Shown in pieces: positions 21,596 to 28,851 of a stretch of DNA of 39,886 nt; the first letter of the stretch is position 1; each line of letters opens with the position of its first letter. The stretch is from assembly GCA_003219415.1 (NCBI GenBank), contig QHOS01000028.1, positions 1-39,886 on the forward strand, in the 5' to 3' direction. Made by a program: the position numbers and the translations under genes. This DNA is from Verrucomicrobiota bacterium (GTDB taxonomy: Bacteria; Verrucomicrobiota; Verrucomicrobiia; Chthoniobacterales; UBA10450). The notes below the pieces were generated by a model, which made no database searches, was not told where the DNA came from, and was given only the letters and a program-made list of their open reading frames with translations.

Positions 21596-21680
21596 AGACG
21601 TGATTCAAGATTTGTAATTCGTAATTTGAAAAGTGAAATTCGAGAACCGGATCACGAATCACCAGTTACCAATTACGGTT
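21596..21680. repeat. quasi-periodic word repeat between convergent genes
   Basis: The stretch holds GTAATTCGTAATTTG, then GAAATTCG, then ATCACGAATCAC and ACCAATTACGG. Short words of the AATTCGTA and GAATCAC kinds recur, and the ends are partly inverted (GTGATTC near 21600 versus GAATCAC near 21655). No ORF is present. Related words occur at 31808-31860. Confidence 0.45.
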
Positions 21681-23446
21681 CACCCCAGTAAATCGCCGTA
21701 ACGCTTGTCCGCTAATTCGAGGCACCGCGACAGAATCTCCGAGGAAGTATTCAGCTTGAGTGTTTCCTCGACCAGCTCGCGGCATTCAGGAATAGCCAGA
21801 CTTTGCACCGCGCGTTTCACTCGCGGAACCGACGTCGCCCCCGCGCTCAGTTCATCCATGCCAAGACCGAGCAAAAGCGGAACCAGCGCGACGTCTCCGG
21901 CCATTTCTCCGCAAACACCCACCCAGATGTGATGCGCATGCGCCGCCTCGGCGATCATTCTTAACAAACGCAGTATTGCCGGATGCGTAGGCTCATAAAG
22001 GTGCGCGATCTTTTCGTTCACTCGGTCGACTGCAAGCGTATACTGGATCAGATCGTTGGTTCCGATGCTGAAGAAATCGACCTCGGATGCGAGAACATTG
22101 GCGCAGAGGGCTGCGCTTGGGATTTCAATCATCGCGCCAACCTCGATCTCTTCGTCCAAAGGAACGCCCGACCGGCGCAACTCTTCATGGCACTCAGCGA
22201 GGACGGCCTTGGCACCTCGCAATTCCTCCAGACCCGAGATCATGGGAAACATGATTTTTATGTTCCCGACAGCGCTGGCACGGAGAATAGCGCGCAACTG
22301 CGTTTTAAAAATGTCTATGTTCTCGAGACAAAGACGAATAGCACGCCAGCCAAGGAAAGGATTTAACTCATCAGTGATATCTACCGTACCAGGAGCCAGT
22401 TTGTCGCCGCCTAGATCAAATGTTCGGATAATTAGCGGATCAGGCCGGACGCGCTCTGCTACTTTTCGATAGGTTTCGAATTGTTCGTCCTCTGTCGGCA
22501 GGGTAGTCCGATTCAAATAAAGGAATTCCGTGCGATAAAGTCCGATGCCCTCCGCGCCATTGGCCGCGACGGCCTCGACGTCTTCCGGGAGTTCAATGTT
22601 TGCGGAGAGCACAATGTGACGACCGTCGCGCGTGGTTGATCTTGTCGTACGCAGTTGTTTGAGTTGTGACACAACCCTGGCCCTTCTTGATTCAAGCTCT
22701 GCGTAGTGCGCGATCGTTTCCGGCGCCGGATTGACAATTAGCAGGCCATCACTCCCATCGACCAGCACGTGTTGGCCAGTCTCGAGCTTCGCGGTAATAT
22801 CGTGCAATCCGACGACCGCCGGGATGTTAAGAGAGCGCGCCAGAATCGCCGCGTGCGATGTGCGGCTACCCAGATCGGTCGCGATCCCGAGCACGTTTGC
22901 ACGGTTCATGCTTGCCGTGTCCGAAGGAGTAAGATTATGCGCAACGAGAATGTGCAACTCGCTCAGGGCAAGAAACGTCTTGGGAGCTTTGCCCTGCAGA
23001 TTGCGAATCACGCGCTTTGTCACGTCCTGAATATCCAGCGCACGTTCTCGAAGGTAGGGATCGTCGATCTTATTCAGAGTCTCAGCGTAACGCGTGGCAA
23101 CTTCCTGAAAGACCCACTCGACATTGCAAAGGTCGGTTTCCAGCTTCCGCAGCACTTCGTCGATCAGCGTCCGATCCTCGACGACAAGTAGATGCGCATC
23201 GAAAATGGCTGCGTCCTTTGCTCCGATGGATTCCGCAATGCGCTGCTGCATTTCCAGAATCTGCATGCGCGTTTGAATAAGCGCGGTCTCGAACCGTCCG
23301 ATCTCGTCCGGAATCTGGGAAGGCGCGATCCGGTACCGCGAGACGTCATCCAAGTCATCGCGCACGACATGGATCTTGCCGCAGGCCATTCCGGGCGAAA
23401 CGCCTGCTCCTTCAAACCGGATTTCCTGACGCTCGCCGCCGCTCAT
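21680..23446 (-). CDS. ptsI: PTS enzyme I (phosphoenolpyruvate-protein phosphotransferase)
   Basis: 588 residues, the standard size of EI. EI takes phosphate from PEP and passes it to HPr. The phosphorylated His is H198 in DLGSRTSHAAILARSL. The PEP-binding half has GIGLYRTEFLYLNR, the FPMISGLEELR block, EVGAMIEIPSAA, FSIGTNDLIQYTLAVDR and VCGEMAGD. Lacks any extra GAF domain, so it is the ordinary sugar-type EI rather than PtsP. ptsH and hprK lie upstream on the same strand (109 bp from ptsH). No EII gene is visible, so the relay here may mainly regulate. Confidence 0.97.
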   Translation of the reverse strand: MSGGERQEIRFEGAGVSPGMACGKIHVVRDDLDDVSRYRIAPSQIPDEIGRFETALIQTRMQILEMQQRIAESIGAKDAAIFDAHLLVVEDRTLIDEVLRKLETDLCNVEWVFQEVATRYAETLNKIDDPYLRERALDIQDVTKRVIRNLQGKAPKTFLALSELHILVAHNLTPSDTASMNRANVLGIATDLGSRTSHAAILARSLNIPAVVGLHDITAKLETGQHVLVDGSDGLLIVNPAPETIAHYAELESRRARVVSQLKQLRTTRSTTRDGRHIVLSANIELPEDVEAVAANGAEGIGLYRTEFLYLNRTTLPTEDEQFETYRKVAERVRPDPLIIRTFDLGGDKLAPGTVDITDELNPFLGWRAIRLCLENIDIFKTQLRAILRASAVGNIKIMFPMISGLEELRGAKAVLAECHEELRRSGVPLDEEIEVGAMIEIPSAALCANVLASEVDFFSIGTNDLIQYTLAVDRVNEKIAHLYEPTHPAILRLLRMIAEAAHAHHIWVGVCGEMAGDVALVPLLLGLGMDELSAGATSVPRVKRAVQSLAIPECRELVEETLKLNTSSEILSRCLELADKRYGDLLG

Positions 23447-23555
23447 GCACCTGCCAGACTAAAGCAGATGTCAAACAATGCGAGAGCCTCTTCGTGGACC
23501 TTAAGGAGGCAGCGCCGCCCCCGAGAGCTTTCGGGGTCGTCGCACCGCGACGCCC

Positions 23556-23867
23556 TTACTCCTCGTTAAAACCCGCCTTGATCAAGGCCTCGAGTTCTTC
23601 CATCGCCTTGTCGGCATCGGGGCCTTCGCAGCGGATGTGAAGCTTTGATCCCTGGCCGGCGGCCAACATCATCAAGCCCATGATACTCTTGCCATTTACT
23701 TCTTCCCCTTCCTTGGAAACCCAGATTTCCGAACGATGACGACTCGCAATCCGCACAAACATGGCCGCTGGCCGCGCGTGAAGCCCAAGCCGATTGGCAA
23801 TCGAAATGTCTTTTTCGACCTTCTGGGCAGCTGCGGCGCGGCCGGTTTTTCTATACAGCAAACCCAT
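23556..23867 (-). CDS. ptsH: HPr family phosphocarrier protein
   Basis: 103 residues, about 15 more than classical HPr at the N-terminus. The phosphoacceptor His is H30 in NRLGLHARPAAMFV. The regulatory Ser site is S61 in NGKSIMGLMMLAAG, the site phosphorylated by HPr kinase. The start overlaps the hprK stop by one base (TAATG), implying translational coupling, so the N-terminal extension is probably real. A short GC hairpin (CCCCGAGAG/CTTTCGGGG, about 23517-23536) lies between this gene and ptsI. Both His and Ser sites are kept, so it can serve both EI and HprK. Confidence 0.96.
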   Translation of the reverse strand: MGLLYRKTGRAAAAQKVEKDISIANRLGLHARPAAMFVRIASRHRSEIWVSKEGEEVNGKSIMGLMMLAAGQGSKLHIRCEGPDADKAMEELEALIKAGFNEE

Positions 23868-24895
23868 TACACTGCTCCCTTCCCTGCCACGCCAGAGCCT
23901 TGCGAAGGCGGGCGCTCCATCAAACTGAGCAGTCTAGCGTTAAAATCGACTGCACTGTTTTGGCCGAGACCCTTCAATTTTTCATCCATCGCCGCGACCT
24001 CGATCAGGCGCGCCATATCGCGACCGGGCCTTACCGGAATGGTCACATGCGGCACCGGAAGCCCCAGGATTTCATAGAATTCTCGATCCAGCCCGATCCG
24101 ATCGACCTCGTCCACGTCTTGCCAATCCTTCAGCGTGACCACGAGGTCGAGACGCTTCTCGATTCGAATGCTGCCAATGCCGAAAACCTTCGCCACATCA
24201 ATAATGCCAATGCCACGCACTTCCATGTGATTGCGAGTCAATTCGGGCGCTGTCGCCATGAGCTCGCGTCCTTCGAGCGAAGTGATCCGGGTCACGTCGT
24301 CGGCTACGAGGCTGTAACCGCGCTCGATCAACCCCAAGACGCATTCGCTCTTGCCGATTCCGCTGGCGCCGCGAATTAAAACGCCCACACCCAGGATGTC
24401 CACCATGCTGCCGAACTCGGTTACCGTCGGGGAAAAATCCATCTCTAGAGCAATTGTCGCCGCGTTAATGAACTTCATGGTAATCATCGGAGTGCGAAAC
24501 ACTGCGATTTTTGCCTCTGCGGTCACACCTAGCAACTCCGGCGCAAGACGAAACCCCCGCGACATGACCAGGCACGGAATTTTGCGCTGGCACAATCTTC
24601 GAAATCGTTTTACGCGCAACTTCGAAGGCAAACTTTTGAGATAGGAATGCTCGGCTGCACCCAGCACCTGCACACGTTTTTCAGCGAAATAAGTATAGAA
24701 GCCCGACAGAGCAAGGCCGGGGCGGTTGATAGTGGGCTCGCGAATTTTGCGATGAAACCCCACCTGCGGCCCCTCTAGTTTCATCTGCAGCTTTTCAGCG
24801 TGCGAGTTGTAAAAGCTGTCGACCGTAACAACCGGGACGCTTTTCTGTCGATCGCTTGGAGATGTGATCGTCTGGGTGCCGAGTTGTTCCGCCAT
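23867..24895 (-). CDS. hprK: HPr kinase/phosphorylase
   Basis: 342 residues. The C-terminal half carries the P-loop GASGIGKSE (G176 to S183) and the HPrK signature stretch MEVRGIGIIDVAKVFGIGSI. An N-terminal domain (about residues 15-145) matches the Hpr_kinase_N fold region. It phosphorylates HPr on Ser and removes that phosphate again, in the cytoplasm. An about 15-residue N-terminal lead is unusual but the start ATG is in place. It overlaps ptsH by one base. In Gram-negative bacteria with incomplete PTS, HprK is thought to have regulatory roles; that applies here by analogy. Confidence 0.96.
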   Translation of the reverse strand: MAEQLGTQTITSPSDRQKSVPVVTVDSFYNSHAEKLQMKLEGPQVGFHRKIREPTINRPGLALSGFYTYFAEKRVQVLGAAEHSYLKSLPSKLRVKRFRRLCQRKIPCLVMSRGFRLAPELLGVTAEAKIAVFRTPMITMKFINAATIALEMDFSPTVTEFGSMVDILGVGVLIRGASGIGKSECVLGLIERGYSLVADDVTRITSLEGRELMATAPELTRNHMEVRGIGIIDVAKVFGIGSIRIEKRLDLVVTLKDWQDVDEVDRIGLDREFYEILGLPVPHVTIPVRPGRDMARLIEVAAMDEKLKGLGQNSAVDFNARLLSLMERPPSQGSGVAGKGAV

Positions 24896-24997
24896 GAGGA
24901 TTAACTTCTAGCGTGGATACGGCGCGATTTCCAATATGCGTCGCAGCACAGACTCGCTGCTGCATGCAAAGATGCCAAGATCAGAGCGAACGCTCTA

Positions 24998-25339
24998 TTA
25001 GCGTTTCTCCTGACCTTGATAGCGGATCACTTTCGCCTTTTCGAGCGTGACGAGGCCGCCGCCCATCATTTCATCGAGCACTGGCAAGAATGCATTTACC
25101 TTTTCCTCAGTGTCCACGATTTCGATCACCATTGGAAGATCCATGGATAAGCGAAGGATCTTGGCAGTGTGCAGGTGACTTGATTTTCCAAAACCCATTG
25201 GTCCGCGCAACACGGTTGCGCCTGCCAGTTGCAGTTCGCGTGCTTTCAACACGATCGCCTCGTACAGCGGTCGGTGCTGATAACGATCACTTTCACCGAT
25301 AAAAATCCGCAGGAGGACAGCGTCTTCTGGAAGGTGCAT
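24998..25339 (-). CDS. DUF190 domain protein
   Basis: 113 residues, typical of DUF190 (PF02641): LLRIFIGESDRYQHRPLYEA at the start, GATVLRGPMGFG, then LPMVIEIVDTEEKVNAFLP. The fold is ferredoxin-like and resembles PII signal proteins; no activity is established. It starts 9 bp after the stop of fluC on the same strand, so it belongs to the fluoride-riboswitch operon. DUF190 genes are often beside crcB genes, which suggests a role linked to fluoride or its channel, by inference. The gap down to hprK (24896-24997) holds a small hairpin, AGAGCG-TTCG-CTCT, a possible weak terminator. Confidence 0.88.
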   Translation of the reverse strand: MHLPEDAVLLRIFIGESDRYQHRPLYEAIVLKARELQLAGATVLRGPMGFGKSSHLHTAKILRLSMDLPMVIEIVDTEEKVNAFLPVLDEMMGGGLVTLEKAKVIRYQGQEKR

Positions 25340-25348
25340 GGCTTGTTT

Positions 25349-25738
25349 CTATTTCGGCAATAGCGCAAGAGCAAGAATACGTCCAAGCCATACCGCTGCG
25401 ACGCAGCAAGCGAATGAGAGCGCCGTGTTCAGGCAGGCCCTGAACCAATCTCCGTCCCGAGCGAGGTCGAGCGTTTGTAAGCTGAATGATGAAAACGTGG
25501 TGTAACCTCCGCACACGCCGATCATGAAGAATTGACGAAGCCGCGGTGACACAAGAAGCGGCCCTTCCGGATCCGTAAATGCGGCAAAGAACCCGATAGC
25601 GAAGGATCCCGTGACGTTCACGACGAGTGTTCCCAGAGGGAAAAGCTCCCCGGCCGTTTTAGCAACAAACCCCGACGCCCAGAATCGCGCTCCAGTCCCA
25701 AGTGCACCGCCTAACATCACCAAAATGTAATCGAGCAT
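25349..25738 (-). CDS. crcB: fluoride channel FluC/CrcB
   Basis: 129 residues, four predicted membrane helices (about 3-23, 35-57, 66-88 and 100-125). FluC dimers expel fluoride passively from the cytoplasm. Family marks: GGALGTGARFWASG near the N-terminus, NVTGSFAIGFFA with its conserved Asn, and GVCGGYTTFSSFSLQTLDL with the Phe box and Thr/Ser polar track. A single gene rather than a FluC pair is seen, which suits homodimeric channels. A fluoride riboswitch and attenuator lie immediately upstream. Its ribosome-binding site (GGAAGGAG, 25746-25753 complement) is formed by the 3' half of the terminator stem. DUF190 follows. Confidence 0.95.
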   Translation of the reverse strand: MLDYILVMLGGALGTGARFWASGFVAKTAGELFPLGTLVVNVTGSFAIGFFAAFTDPEGPLLVSPRLRQFFMIGVCGGYTTFSSFSLQTLDLARDGDWFRACLNTALSFACCVAAVWLGRILALALLPK

Positions 25739-25739
25739 T

Positions 25740-25766
25740 AAAAAACTCCTTCCGTTTGGAAGGAGT
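25740..25766 (-). terminator. fluoride-riboswitch expression platform: intrinsic terminator
   Basis: On the minus strand ACTCCTTCC-AAAC-GGAAGGAGT is followed by six T residues, then AATG of crcB. The 5' arm of this 9-bp stem includes ACTCCT, which is also the pseudoknot strand of the fluoride aptamer. The two folds are therefore mutually exclusive. Fluoride should hold the aptamer strand and let transcription pass. The 3' arm doubles as the crcB Shine-Dalgarno. Confidence 0.85.
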
Positions 25767-25823
25767 CATTAGCTCGCGCGGTTTTCCCAGCCTTCAGGTG
25801 GGACGGCAAACTCCATTGCCTTG
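25761..25823 (-). ncRNA. fluoride riboswitch (crcB motif) aptamer
   Basis: Read on the minus strand: a hairpin GGCAA-TGGAGT-TTGCC (complement of 25805-25820), then a variable hairpin (CCCA...TGGG), then AACCGC and GCTAATGACTCCT. The loop TGGAGT can pair with ACTCCT to give the pseudoknot of the class. TGGAGT, AACCGC and the (T/A)AATGACTCCT end match the known crcB motif, as in Pseudomonas. It stands directly before crcB, as expected. The only odd part is the extra hairpin between TTGCC and AACCGC. Confidence 0.87.
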
Positions 25824-25854
25824 AGCGGATGTTACCGCGTCTTTGCTTCGATTC

Positions 25855-25908
25855 AAGGAAGAATAGGCAAGCGATGCGCTTGCCCTGCACCGGCTGTGTC
25901 AGCCGCGG
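25855..25908 (-). terminator. possible lptB terminator, also a composite hairpin repeat
   Basis: Minus strand: GGCAAGCG-CAT-CGCTTGCC (25866-25884) followed by TATTCTTCCTT, a moderate terminator just after lptB. Before it is CGGCT-GACAC-AGCCG (25890-25904), whose complement has the loop GTGTC, the same loop as at 1152-1277. The pair of hairpins resembles the repeat near 6383-6429. It may thus be a repeat that also serves as terminator. Confidence 0.55.
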
Positions 25909-25909
25909 C

Positions 25910-26695
25910 TTACATCTTGAAGCGCTCGCCGAGATAAAGTTGACGGCTGATGGGATCGTCGATGAGAAAATCCTTTGTGCCTTCGCTCTCGACGCGGCCA
26001 TCGAAAATCAAATACGCGCGGTCGACGATGGAAAGAGTCTCGCGCACATTGTGATCGGTAATCATGATCGCAAGGCCCGATTTGCGCAGGTTTACGATAA
26101 TTTGCTGGACATCGTAGACGGCGATGGGATCCACACCGCTGAACGGCTCATCGAGCATCAACAACTTAGGTTGCGTGACCAGCGAACGCGCAATTGTTAA
26201 TCGTCGTTTCTCTCCGCCGCTCAACGTGAGCGCGATGTTTTTAGCGATCCGCTCAATTCCAAACTGATGCAGCAGTTGGTCGCAACGGTTGCGCCGTTCG
26301 GCCTTGCTGAGCGGCAGCGTTTCCAAAATGGCGAGGATGTTTTGTTCGACTGTCATCTTCCGGAAGATCGATTCTTCCTGCGGTAAATAACCCATGCCAA
26401 GCCGCGCACGCTTGTACATCGGATAGTCAGTGACGTCGGTGTCCGAAAAAATCACCCGACCGCTATTTGGCCTGATCAGGCCAACAATCATATAAAAACT
26501 CGTGGTTTTACCTGCTCCATTCGGTCCGAGTAGTCCCACAATTTCGCTGGCTCCAACATGCATGTTGATTCCGTCGACGACCGCTCGGCCTCCGTAAATC
26601 TTAACCAGTTGATCGGTACTCAGTACGGTCTCCGCCTTCGTTGTGGCCGGCGACGGAGCTTTCGGAGTCGAAACAGGCGCAGCTTGGCTAATCAT
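25910..26695 (-). CDS. lptB: lipopolysaccharide export ABC transporter ATPase LptB
   Basis: 261 residues: an about 25-residue Pro/Ala/Thr-rich lead, then a standard ABC ATPase. Walker A is GPNGAGKTT (57-65), the signature LSGGEKRR (158-165), Walker B LLMLDEPFSG (178-187), and the H-loop Asp-His is in ITDHNVRETL. Signs of LptB over other ABC ATPases are MGYLPQEESIFRKMTVEQN and FSGVDPIAVYDVQQI. It powers extraction of lipopolysaccharide from the inner membrane with LptFG. Its ATG overlaps the stop of the upstream lptA-like gene (ATGA), so they are coupled. lptF and lptG are not in the window. Confidence 0.96.
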   Translation of the reverse strand: MISQAAPVSTPKAPSPATTKAETVLSTDQLVKIYGGRAVVDGINMHVGASEIVGLLGPNGAGKTTSFYMIVGLIRPNSGRVIFSDTDVTDYPMYKRARLGMGYLPQEESIFRKMTVEQNILAILETLPLSKAERRNRCDQLLHQFGIERIAKNIALTLSGGEKRRLTIARSLVTQPKLLMLDEPFSGVDPIAVYDVQQIIVNLRKSGLAIMITDHNVRETLSIVDRAYLIFDGRVESEGTKDFLIDDPISRQLYLGERFKM

Positions 26696-27414
26696 GGCTT
26701 TGGCAGAGACGGAGCGGGTGACGCTTGCGCGGCGGGAGTTTGAGAGGGATTTGCTTGTCCCTTTTTTTCTTCGTTTGGCTGCTGAACAATTTGGGTGCGA
26801 CTGGGTCCGTGCGTCTTTAGCTGACTGTTCTGACTAATGATCATGACCGTATCAGGGCTGGTTGCCACATGCAGGTTTTGTCCCTCTTGCACCCGCGGTG
26901 TTCCCACCAATTCAACATCGCCGGAGTTAGCTGTATAGGTGGCTTTATCGGAACGGCCAACAGCGCGAGTGGGAGGGCCGCCATTCGGATCGGGCCGGTC
27001 GCGCACAAGTCCAACGTTCCCTTCTGCGATGGCTTTCTCCAGGCTCTGGTTTTGTCCCTTTGTAATGAACACTGTTAATTTGTCAGATTGCAGATTGAAA
27101 CGCGGATCGACTACCTTCACACGGCCGCTAAAGATGCCCATGTTCTTGGTTGAATCAAAAAAAGCCTCGTCCGAATAGATTTCCGTTGTCGTCGGTTGAT
27201 CGGATTGGATCCCCGCGGGGCTCGAGCCAAATAAGTTCGTGCCGGATGATTTATCTTCTTTCTTTTTATCCTTGTTTTTCGCTTTGTCTTTCGCTGGTTT
27301 CTCAGCTTTCTTGGCAGGCAGGGGCGAGCCCGGTGGCGCAGCGGCAATCTGTCCAGCCGACCGCGCCCCGATCGCGCATGCGATAAACAAGACTAACACA
27401 CCTAATTTTCTCAT
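26692..27414 (-). CDS. lptA: LptA/OstA-like periplasmic LPS transport protein
   Basis: 240 residues. A signal peptide (about 1-20: MRKLGVLVLFIACAIGARSA) is followed by a low-complexity, Lys-rich linker (about 34-58) that LptA from E. coli does not have. An OstA/LptA beta-jellyroll region then runs from about 75 to 200 (EIYSDEAFFDSTKNMGIFSG, SDKLTVFITKG, KATYTANSGDVELVGTPRV). The C-terminal 35 residues are Pro/Gln/Ala-rich. The protein should bridge inner and outer membrane for LPS. Position between an lptC-like gene and lptB with ATGA overlaps on both sides supports it. Length and linker make it an atypical member. Confidence 0.82.
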   Translation of the reverse strand: MRKLGVLVLFIACAIGARSAGQIAAAPPGSPLPAKKAEKPAKDKAKNKDKKKEDKSSGTNLFGSSPAGIQSDQPTTTEIYSDEAFFDSTKNMGIFSGRVKVVDPRFNLQSDKLTVFITKGQNQSLEKAIAEGNVGLVRDRPDPNGGPPTRAVGRSDKATYTANSGDVELVGTPRVQEGQNLHVATSPDTVMIISQNSQLKTHGPSRTQIVQQPNEEKKGQANPSQTPAAQASPAPSLPKP

Positions 27415-27962
27415 TCGGTCGTGTTGGGTTTCGCCGTCAGATGAGATTTGTCAGTGATCACCATCTTTACATTTCCGCTCAATCGTCCGGTCTTCGAATT
27501 CGTGTCGAATTGCACCGAATCACCAGCGATGTTGAAATCCGACCGCTGAATGGTTGTGCGCTCCTGTGAGCTTAGAATCTTAGTCTTCAAATCCAGCACC
27601 GATGTGAGCATGTCGATTTGCAGGTCAGGCTGACTCTGCGGAGTGTAGGTTGTAATTTTAAGATGCTGAAAGCCTACGTGTTCCTGGTCAATCCGGTGAG
27701 CAGTCCCGGCTTCGAATTTTCCCCTTAAACGACCGTCACCATCGAAATCTGGCAATACAAGGCCCTTGGCTTCGTGCCCAATTGGCAGCGGAATGTTCGT
27801 CAAGCTCTGTTCCCCGGGAGACCCGCCCGCTGTCGCTGAGGTGCCCGCCTTCCTTTTACGACCTTTTGACTGACCAGATACTTGAGGCGCCGCTATTACA
27901 ACGCACATCAACACCGACACCAACCAAAGCGACAAGACCCGGCGGAGATGAGAGTGGGTCAC
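27411..27962 (-). CDS. LptC-like LPS export protein
   Basis: 183 residues from a GTG at 27962. That start is chosen because GGAGG ends 8 nt before it and because the resulting protein opens with a membrane-anchor or signal segment (LSLWLVSVLMCVVIAAPQVSG). The frame is open to 28043, overlapping kdsA, but that lead has no support. The mature region has the LptC-like pattern LPDFDGDGRLRGKFEAGTAH and DLQIDMLTSVLDLKTKILSS, then a VQFDTNSKTGRLSGNVKM repeat of the OstA type. LptC would link LptBFG with LptA. The assignment leans on operon position as well as motifs, so it is moderate. Confidence 0.72.
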   Translation of the reverse strand: MTHSHLRRVLSLWLVSVLMCVVIAAPQVSGQSKGRKRKAGTSATAGGSPGEQSLTNIPLPIGHEAKGLVLPDFDGDGRLRGKFEAGTAHRIDQEHVGFQHLKITTYTPQSQPDLQIDMLTSVLDLKTKILSSQERTTIQRSDFNIAGDSVQFDTNSKTGRLSGNVKMVITDKSHLTAKPNTTE

Positions 27963-28014
27963 TGGAATCTCCTCCTCCCTCGACGCAATATCCCTGTTAC
28001 CCGGGCGATTGCGG

Positions 28015-28851
28015 TCAATCGCCCCTACCTGAGACGGCAGCATGAATAGCCTTTAACACGCGCAGGTGCTTCGGCAAATCCTTTAGGGGAATCTGATTTG
28101 GCCCATCTGATAACGCACGGCTCGGGTTTTCGTGCACCTCCATGAAGATTCCGTCGCACCCGGTGGCCATCGCTGCTCTCGCCAGCGCCGGCGCCAAAAC
28201 ACCGTCACCCGATGTGGAGTCCCCCGCCCCACCCGGCCGCTGCACCGAATGGGTCGCATCAAAAATCACGCGATAGCCGGCGTCGCGCAGCCAATAGAGT
28301 GAGCGCATATCGGCAACGAGGTTGTTATAGCCAAAACTAGTGCCGCGCTCCGTGAAACAGAATTTGTCATTGCCGAACGCAATCAACTTCTCGGCGATAT
28401 TACGCACGTCCCACGGTGCAAGAAACTGGCCTTTTTTCACATTGATCGCGCGATCCGTTTCCGCAGCTGCGTGCAGGAGATCGGTTTGGCGGCAAAGAAA
28501 TGCCGGGATTTGCAACATATCAATCTTCTCGCCAGCAATTTCGGCTTCGGCAGAGGAATGAACATCCGTTGTGACGGCAATTTTCAAGTCCCGGCCGATG
28601 ACTGAAAGAATCTCGCAACCTTCACGTACTCCGACTCCGCGAAAAGAGCGCACCGAAGTTCGATTCGCCTTGTCATACGAGGCCTTGAAAATGAAATCGA
28701 TATCTTCGGCCGCGCAGATTTCAGCGATCTTCTTCGCCATCCGCCGGACAAACTTCTCCGACTCAATCACGCACGGCCCGAGGATGAATACCGGACGTTT
28801 GCCGCCAATGGTAACTTTGCCTACACGCAATGGCTTCATTTTCTCGCTCAT
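28015..28851 (-). CDS. kdsA: 3-deoxy-8-phosphooctulonate synthase (KDO8P synthase)
   Basis: 278 residues, normal for KdsA. Condenses PEP and arabinose 5-phosphate to KDO 8-phosphate, a precursor of the LPS inner core. Blocks seen: FILGPCVIES, FKASYDKANRTS, FRGVGVREG, TDVHSSAEAE, LQIPAFLCRQTDLL, and FDATHSVQRPGG. The C-terminal metal site region MEVHENPSRALSDGPNQIPL is complete. The Cys in GPCVIES suggests the metal-dependent or -independent class cannot be told by eye. It heads the kdsA-lptC-lptA-lptB run. A TGTCATTC-type repeat lies just upstream. Confidence 0.97.
   Translation of the reverse strand: MSEKMKPLRVGKVTIGGKRPVFILGPCVIESEKFVRRMAKKIAEICAAEDIDFIFKASYDKANRTSVRSFRGVGVREGCEILSVIGRDLKIAVTTDVHSSAEAEIAGEKIDMLQIPAFLCRQTDLLHAAAETDRAINVKKGQFLAPWDVRNIAEKLIAFGNDKFCFTERGTSFGYNNLVADMRSLYWLRDAGYRVIFDATHSVQRPGGAGDSTSGDGVLAPALARAAMATGCDGIFMEVHENPSRALSDGPNQIPLKDLPKHLRVLKAIHAAVSGRGD

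Follow-up and report, generated by a model that had tools for sequence, protein, structure and literature searches.

The locus considered here raises the question of whether one short segment of a messenger RNA could control both the transcription and the translation of a fluoride exporter. The segment lies in contig QHOS01000028.1 of a Verrucomicrobiota bacterium (assembly GCA_003219415.1), of which we analysed a stretch of 39,886 nucleotides, hereafter the window. All coordinates refer to this whole stretch, and the switch, crcB and the DUF190 gene all lie on its minus strand. A preliminary description of the window had proposed a fluoride riboswitch in front of crcB in which the pseudoknot strand, a terminator arm and the ribosome-binding site overlap. 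Our analysis indicates that this element is probably a self-contained, fluoride-activated ON switch for crcB and DUF190 with a dual expression platform. This reading is based on the sequence elements, mutually exclusive pairings, conserved pairing of the Shine-Dalgarno sequence, covariation of the hairpin arms, and enrichment of T-runs among relatives.

The minus strand contains a full-length match to the Rfam Fluoride model RF01734 at 25829-25753 (model positions 1-64; E 4.8e-08), which is the only one in the genome. Its score of 40.7 bits exceeds the gathering score of 34, and this check, which had been set beforehand, bore out the riboswitch claim. The hallmarks of the family are present in the alignment, namely the conserved AUGGAGUU loop, AACCGC, AUGACUCC and a pseudoknot between the loop and the 3′ strand, and the aptamer is located upstream of crcB, a fluoride-resistance gene and the canonical target of fluoride riboswitches. 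The first stem-loop, GGCAATGGAGTTTGCC, is placed at 25820-25805 both by the covariance-model alignment and by the sequence itself, and its loop GGAGT (25814-25810) is complementary to ACTCC (25766-25762). The predicted aptamer would bind fluoride with Mg2+. The second stem (25779-25772), with a GCGA tetraloop, is cut to 2 bp by deletions relative to the model. Between the 2 conserved parts of the aptamer, an insertion relative to the model forms the extra hairpin TCCCACC-TGAA-GG.C.TGGGA (25803-25785), as had been described. This hairpin is found in nearly all members of the bacterial family, its pairing kept while its sequence changes, and comparable insertions in the aptamer also occur elsewhere in the phylum; it thus appears to be a lineage feature of the aptamer that is not specific to this one gene. 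The elements assigned earlier to 25736-25823 are all present within those limits, with the first stem starting at 25820; the Rfam match itself starts slightly outside, at 25829.

A 9-bp hairpin at 25766-25745 follows, composed of the arm ACTCCTTCC (25766-25758), the loop AAAC and the arm GGAAGGAGT (25753-25745). Its folding energy is −14.2 kcal/mol (z = −5.64), a stability that not one of 200 shuffled sequences reached, and a simple terminator scan recovers it as terminator-like. ACTCCT (25766-25761) is both the end of the aptamer and the start of the hairpin 5′ arm, and sequence, alignment and folding agree that bases 25766-25762 are used in both pairings, through which the hairpin competes with the ligand-bound fold and excludes the pseudoknot. 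Reading of the sequence places the Shine-Dalgarno sequence of crcB, AAGGAG (25751-25746), inside the 3′ arm, which puts the ribosome-binding site within the 3′ half of a hairpin resembling an intrinsic terminator. It is followed after 7 nt by the ATG at 25738-25736, and no second Shine-Dalgarno sequence for crcB was seen. A tract of 6 T (25745-25740) forms the putative terminator tail together with part of this spacer, its first T (25745) pairing with A25766 within the 9-bp count. The shared-control segment therefore spans 27 nt (25766-25740), and every part of the overlap that the preliminary description had read from the sequence, from the double role of ACTCCT to the 6 T and the start codon, is seen. 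A match arising by chance, with no working riboswitch behind it, could be suspected from the second aptamer stem of just 2 bp. Against this stand an above-threshold Rfam match before crcB and RF01734 aptamers in 51 of the 83 genomes searched from the bacterial family; chance origin was rejected by the Rfam score of 40.7 bits and the hairpin z of −5.6, and we give it a negligible probability.

The switch probably has its own, family-conserved promoter directly upstream, at 25856-25829. A TTGAAT −35 element (25856-25851) and a TAACAT −10 element (25834-25829) are separated by 16 nt, with 8 nt between the latter and the first aptamer stem, and from their position the RNA is predicted to start at about 25822. 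The whole unit, from the −35 element to the ATG, measures about 120 bp. Among 54 family members, the mean best promoter score was 7.56, compared to 5.77 in shuffled sequences and 5.55 in upstream control stretches, with a TTGA-type −35 and a TAnnnT-type −10 element at a fixed place. In 42 of the 54, 7-8 nt separate the end of the −10 element from the first aptamer stem, and the most conserved upstream column is the T equivalent to one in the −35 region.

In the mechanism that we propose, transcription would begin at this promoter, no more than a few bases from the aptamer. When fluoride and Mg2+ are present, the first-stem loop GGAGU (25814-25810) would hold ACUCC (25766-25762) in the pseudoknot; the hairpin would then not form, RNA polymerase would pass the U-tract, and AAGGAG would be free for the ribosome. 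Without fluoride, ACUCCUUCC would pair with GGAAGGAGU, and the hairpin and U-tract would end transcription within a few bases upstream of the AUG, while any read-through RNA would have its Shine-Dalgarno sequence buried. The sharing of bases is seen directly in the sequence, whereas fluoride binding, actual termination with its efficiency, and the contribution of either layer are inferred.

To place this arrangement among its relatives, we read out 55 loci from the 83 family genomes searched, 52 of which could be classified automatically. The Shine-Dalgarno sequence pairs with the aptamer 3′ strand in at least 46 of these 52 switches, a lower bound because the automatic assignment of start codon and Shine-Dalgarno sequence misplaced a few members (L044, L054). 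The 46 paired members differ in the T-run between Shine-Dalgarno sequence and start: at least 5 T are present in 22, four in 10 and none in 14. What stays constant is thus the pairing that would hide the Shine-Dalgarno sequence; members differ in whether they carry the terminator tail. As a null set we used 89 other Shine-Dalgarno starts, taken from window genes and family loci, among which only 1 spacer had at least 5 T and 2 had at least 4 T (Fisher test, p = 1.6e-10 and p = 6.5e-18, respectively; kinship is ignored in these values, and the contrast is large). Because Shine-Dalgarno spacers elsewhere seldom contain such runs, the tract is probably a genuine terminator. That the T-run is the ordinary spacer of these bacteria was rejected, given the single case in 89.

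The hairpin arms also vary in concert. Among 47 distinct hairpins, the pair that comes next after the fixed CTCCT/AGGAG is T-A in 15, A-T in 6 and G-C in 15. Pairing was judged by swapping arms between members, and a MAFFT alignment of the hairpins, which are of unequal length, was not used for the pair counts; swapping lowered the pairing from the observed 2.03 of 3 to 1.61 (p = 0.0005). Together, the arm covariation and the T-run enrichment among relatives support the earlier suggestion that a single 27-nt segment would exert both transcriptional and translational control.

Would one of the 2 layers suffice? If the switch acted on translation only, the hairpin would hide the Shine-Dalgarno sequence and the T-run would be an unstructured spacer behind a poor terminator. 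The conserved Shine-Dalgarno pairing is compatible with this, as are the 14 family members without T-run, some of which have GTTATG or ATCATTATG after the hairpin. Judged roughly from what is generally known of the polymerase footprint, the polymerase would moreover be at about the T-tract by the time the pseudoknot strand emerges from it, allowing little time for a transcriptional decision. However, at least 5 T precede 22 of the 52 starts under switch control, compared to 1 of 89 others, and the site is picked up by the simple terminator scan, which makes a purely translational switch unlikely. Conversely, the Shine-Dalgarno sequence could lie in the 3′ arm merely as a consequence of pairing with CTCC, translational control adding nothing: CTCC is fixed by the aptamer, so that any terminator with a CTCC 5′ arm must contain a Shine-Dalgarno-like GGAG. 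Yet the start codon lies 7 nt behind AAGGAG with no alternative in view, and relatives without T-run keep the pairing. In addition, other phylum members with plain terminators (L060, L203, and L204) have a separate downstream Shine-Dalgarno sequence, in a phylum-wide set of matches that was classified roughly and in which the start codons of many are uncertain. We therefore consider a switch acting on transcription only to be very improbable.

Some observations weigh against the dual platform that we favour. Five of the 9 pairs in the stem are G-C and 5 U remain unpaired, so termination may be partial. The 14 members that pair the Shine-Dalgarno sequence without a T-run indicate that the design can do without termination. 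The predicted promoter agrees with the consensus at just 8 of 12 positions. On the other side, the evidence for termination consists of the terminator-like scan result and the T-run enrichment in relatives.

Platforms of this kind have been described before. Terminators near the gene with the ribosome site in the 3′ side of the hairpin are known as dual expression platforms, and thiamine pyrophosphate (TPP), adenosylcobalamin (AdoCbl), flavin mononucleotide (FMN), and lysine riboswitches have been classified by them (Barrick and Breaker 2007; PMC2258182). Their layout is the same as here, whereas their ligands differ and they are mostly OFF switches, in contrast to the predicted ON switch for fluoride. 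Terminators overlapping the crcB motif have likewise been published (PMC2864571; PMC11077080). In the transcriptional fluoride riboswitches of Bacillus cereus and Thermotoga petrophila, the pseudoknot strand is shared with the terminator base (PMC11077080), and this published class mechanism is the same as the transcriptional part proposed here (PMC11077080; PMC2864571). These switches share with ours the aptamer, the target gene, the ON logic, and the double use of the pseudoknot strand. A probable difference from these 2 switches, whose distance to the start codon was not compared, is that the Shine-Dalgarno sequence and start codon come immediately after the aptamer here, so that the terminator would hide the ribosome site as well; our aptamer also has an extra hairpin and a very short second stem. 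The description of the element as very compact holds mainly for the position of the start codon; its overall length, about 84 nt from the predicted start to the end of the T-tract, is near the published 79-82 nt (PMC11077080).

Two further systems bear on the comparison. The fluoride riboswitches of Pseudomonas syringae and Burkholderia pseudomallei are translational, with no fluoride-dependent termination (PMC13273304); translation would be expected to respond to fluoride here as well, but the T-tract after our hairpin leads us to expect termination too. In the pT181 attenuator, the ribosome-binding site of the following gene is part of the terminator hairpin, as here, although control is by antisense RNA and not by a ligand; dual control has been shown experimentally to cut leak in this system when both layers act (PMC5435934). 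The compact layout also appears to recur in other phyla. A genome pattern scan for a fluoride-type aptamer followed by GGAG, a T-run and ATG, which was no census and whose frames were read by eye, gave, among the matches listed, the same layout leading into frames that resemble CrcB or an antiporter in Elusimicrobia (L099, L120, L149), Gemmatimonadetes (L101) and Bdellovibrionota (L163), and also in L112 and L158, two unassigned bacteria. The novelty hinted at in the preliminary description is thus not upheld: a double lock of this kind was already known, and relatives of this bacterium commonly have it.

The gene behind the switch encodes a Fluc-type fluoride channel of 129 amino acids (25738-25349; PF02537, 1.1e-29; NF010802 CrcB, 175 bits against a cut-off of 140) and is the single CrcB gene of the genome. 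As had been noted, a DUF190 gene comes second (UPF0166, COG1993; 113 amino acids; 25339-24998; PF02641, 6.8e-42; solved relatives 2dcl and 1o51). DUF190 follows crcB in most family members in which crcB is the target, so the pair is a family trait; our literature search found nothing usefully linking DUF190 to crcB. In the surrounding region (21680-28851), crcB-DUF190 is wedged between lptC-lptA-lptB and the hprK-HPr-enzyme I genes of the phosphotransferase system, and the same slot holds an antiporter in other members of the genus. A terminator-like hairpin at 25885-25865, on the minus strand, with 9 pairs, 6 of them G-C, and a T-rich tail, would separate lptB from the switch; about 1 such match per region scanned is the chance level of the scan.

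Within the genus of the window, CrcB is present in 9 of 35 genomes and a switch-controlled CPA2-type antiporter in 19, while none has both. By hand reckoning, such a lack of overlap would arise with a probability of about 2e-4 among independent genomes, but these are related and partly incomplete. DUF190 occurs in 10 genomes of the genus, 9 of which are the CrcB genomes, and CLC-type channels are found in few, on both the CrcB and the antiporter sides. Members of sister genera (L003, L028, L033, L040, and L047) have the order riboswitch, crcB, DUF190, CPA2-type antiporter. In 4 loci (L019, L020, L041, and L045) the antiporter starts with a few residues like those at the start of CrcB (MLNSIWVSFG...), and L018 is listed with such first residues too; it looks as if crcB had been deleted in frame and the start region belonging to the switch had been kept. 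Three others (L015, L024, and L032) have a 61-codon crcB-like remnant between riboswitch and antiporter. The simplest history would be an ancestral three-gene operon that was cut down in 2 ways while its riboswitch stayed. In a review (PMC11139923), Na+/H+ antiporters rank second in frequency among the classes found under fluoride riboswitches, so the association of riboswitch and antiporter is already known; no description of mutual exclusion between crcB and the antiporter was found in the literature. We tentatively suggest, as one possibility among others, that the antiporter alone could be the fluoride defence where crcB was lost, with the switch keeping its translational lock and gaining or losing its terminator tail.

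Other genes were also seen behind such aptamers. Enolase is a known target of fluoride, and in other phylum members (L060, L077, and L204) the gene behind the fluoride aptamer resembles enolase by eye; the terminator and the Shine-Dalgarno sequence are separate from each other in L060 and L204. In L027 and L048, and further downstream in L046, a fluoride-type aptamer precedes a DUF6062 gene with a CPVC motif near its start; in L027, for which a GTG start was assigned, the Shine-Dalgarno sequence pairs with the aptamer strand.

The value of this system lies in its natural series of expression platforms and in the either-or gene content behind them. Closely related aptamers stand in front of the same gene types with the hairpin only, with four T added, or with 5 to 8 T, and through this series one can measure the contribution of a terminator on top of a translational lock and follow how both layers evolve. 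The replacement of crcB under a retained riboswitch makes the substitution of an antiporter for a fluoride exporter testable.
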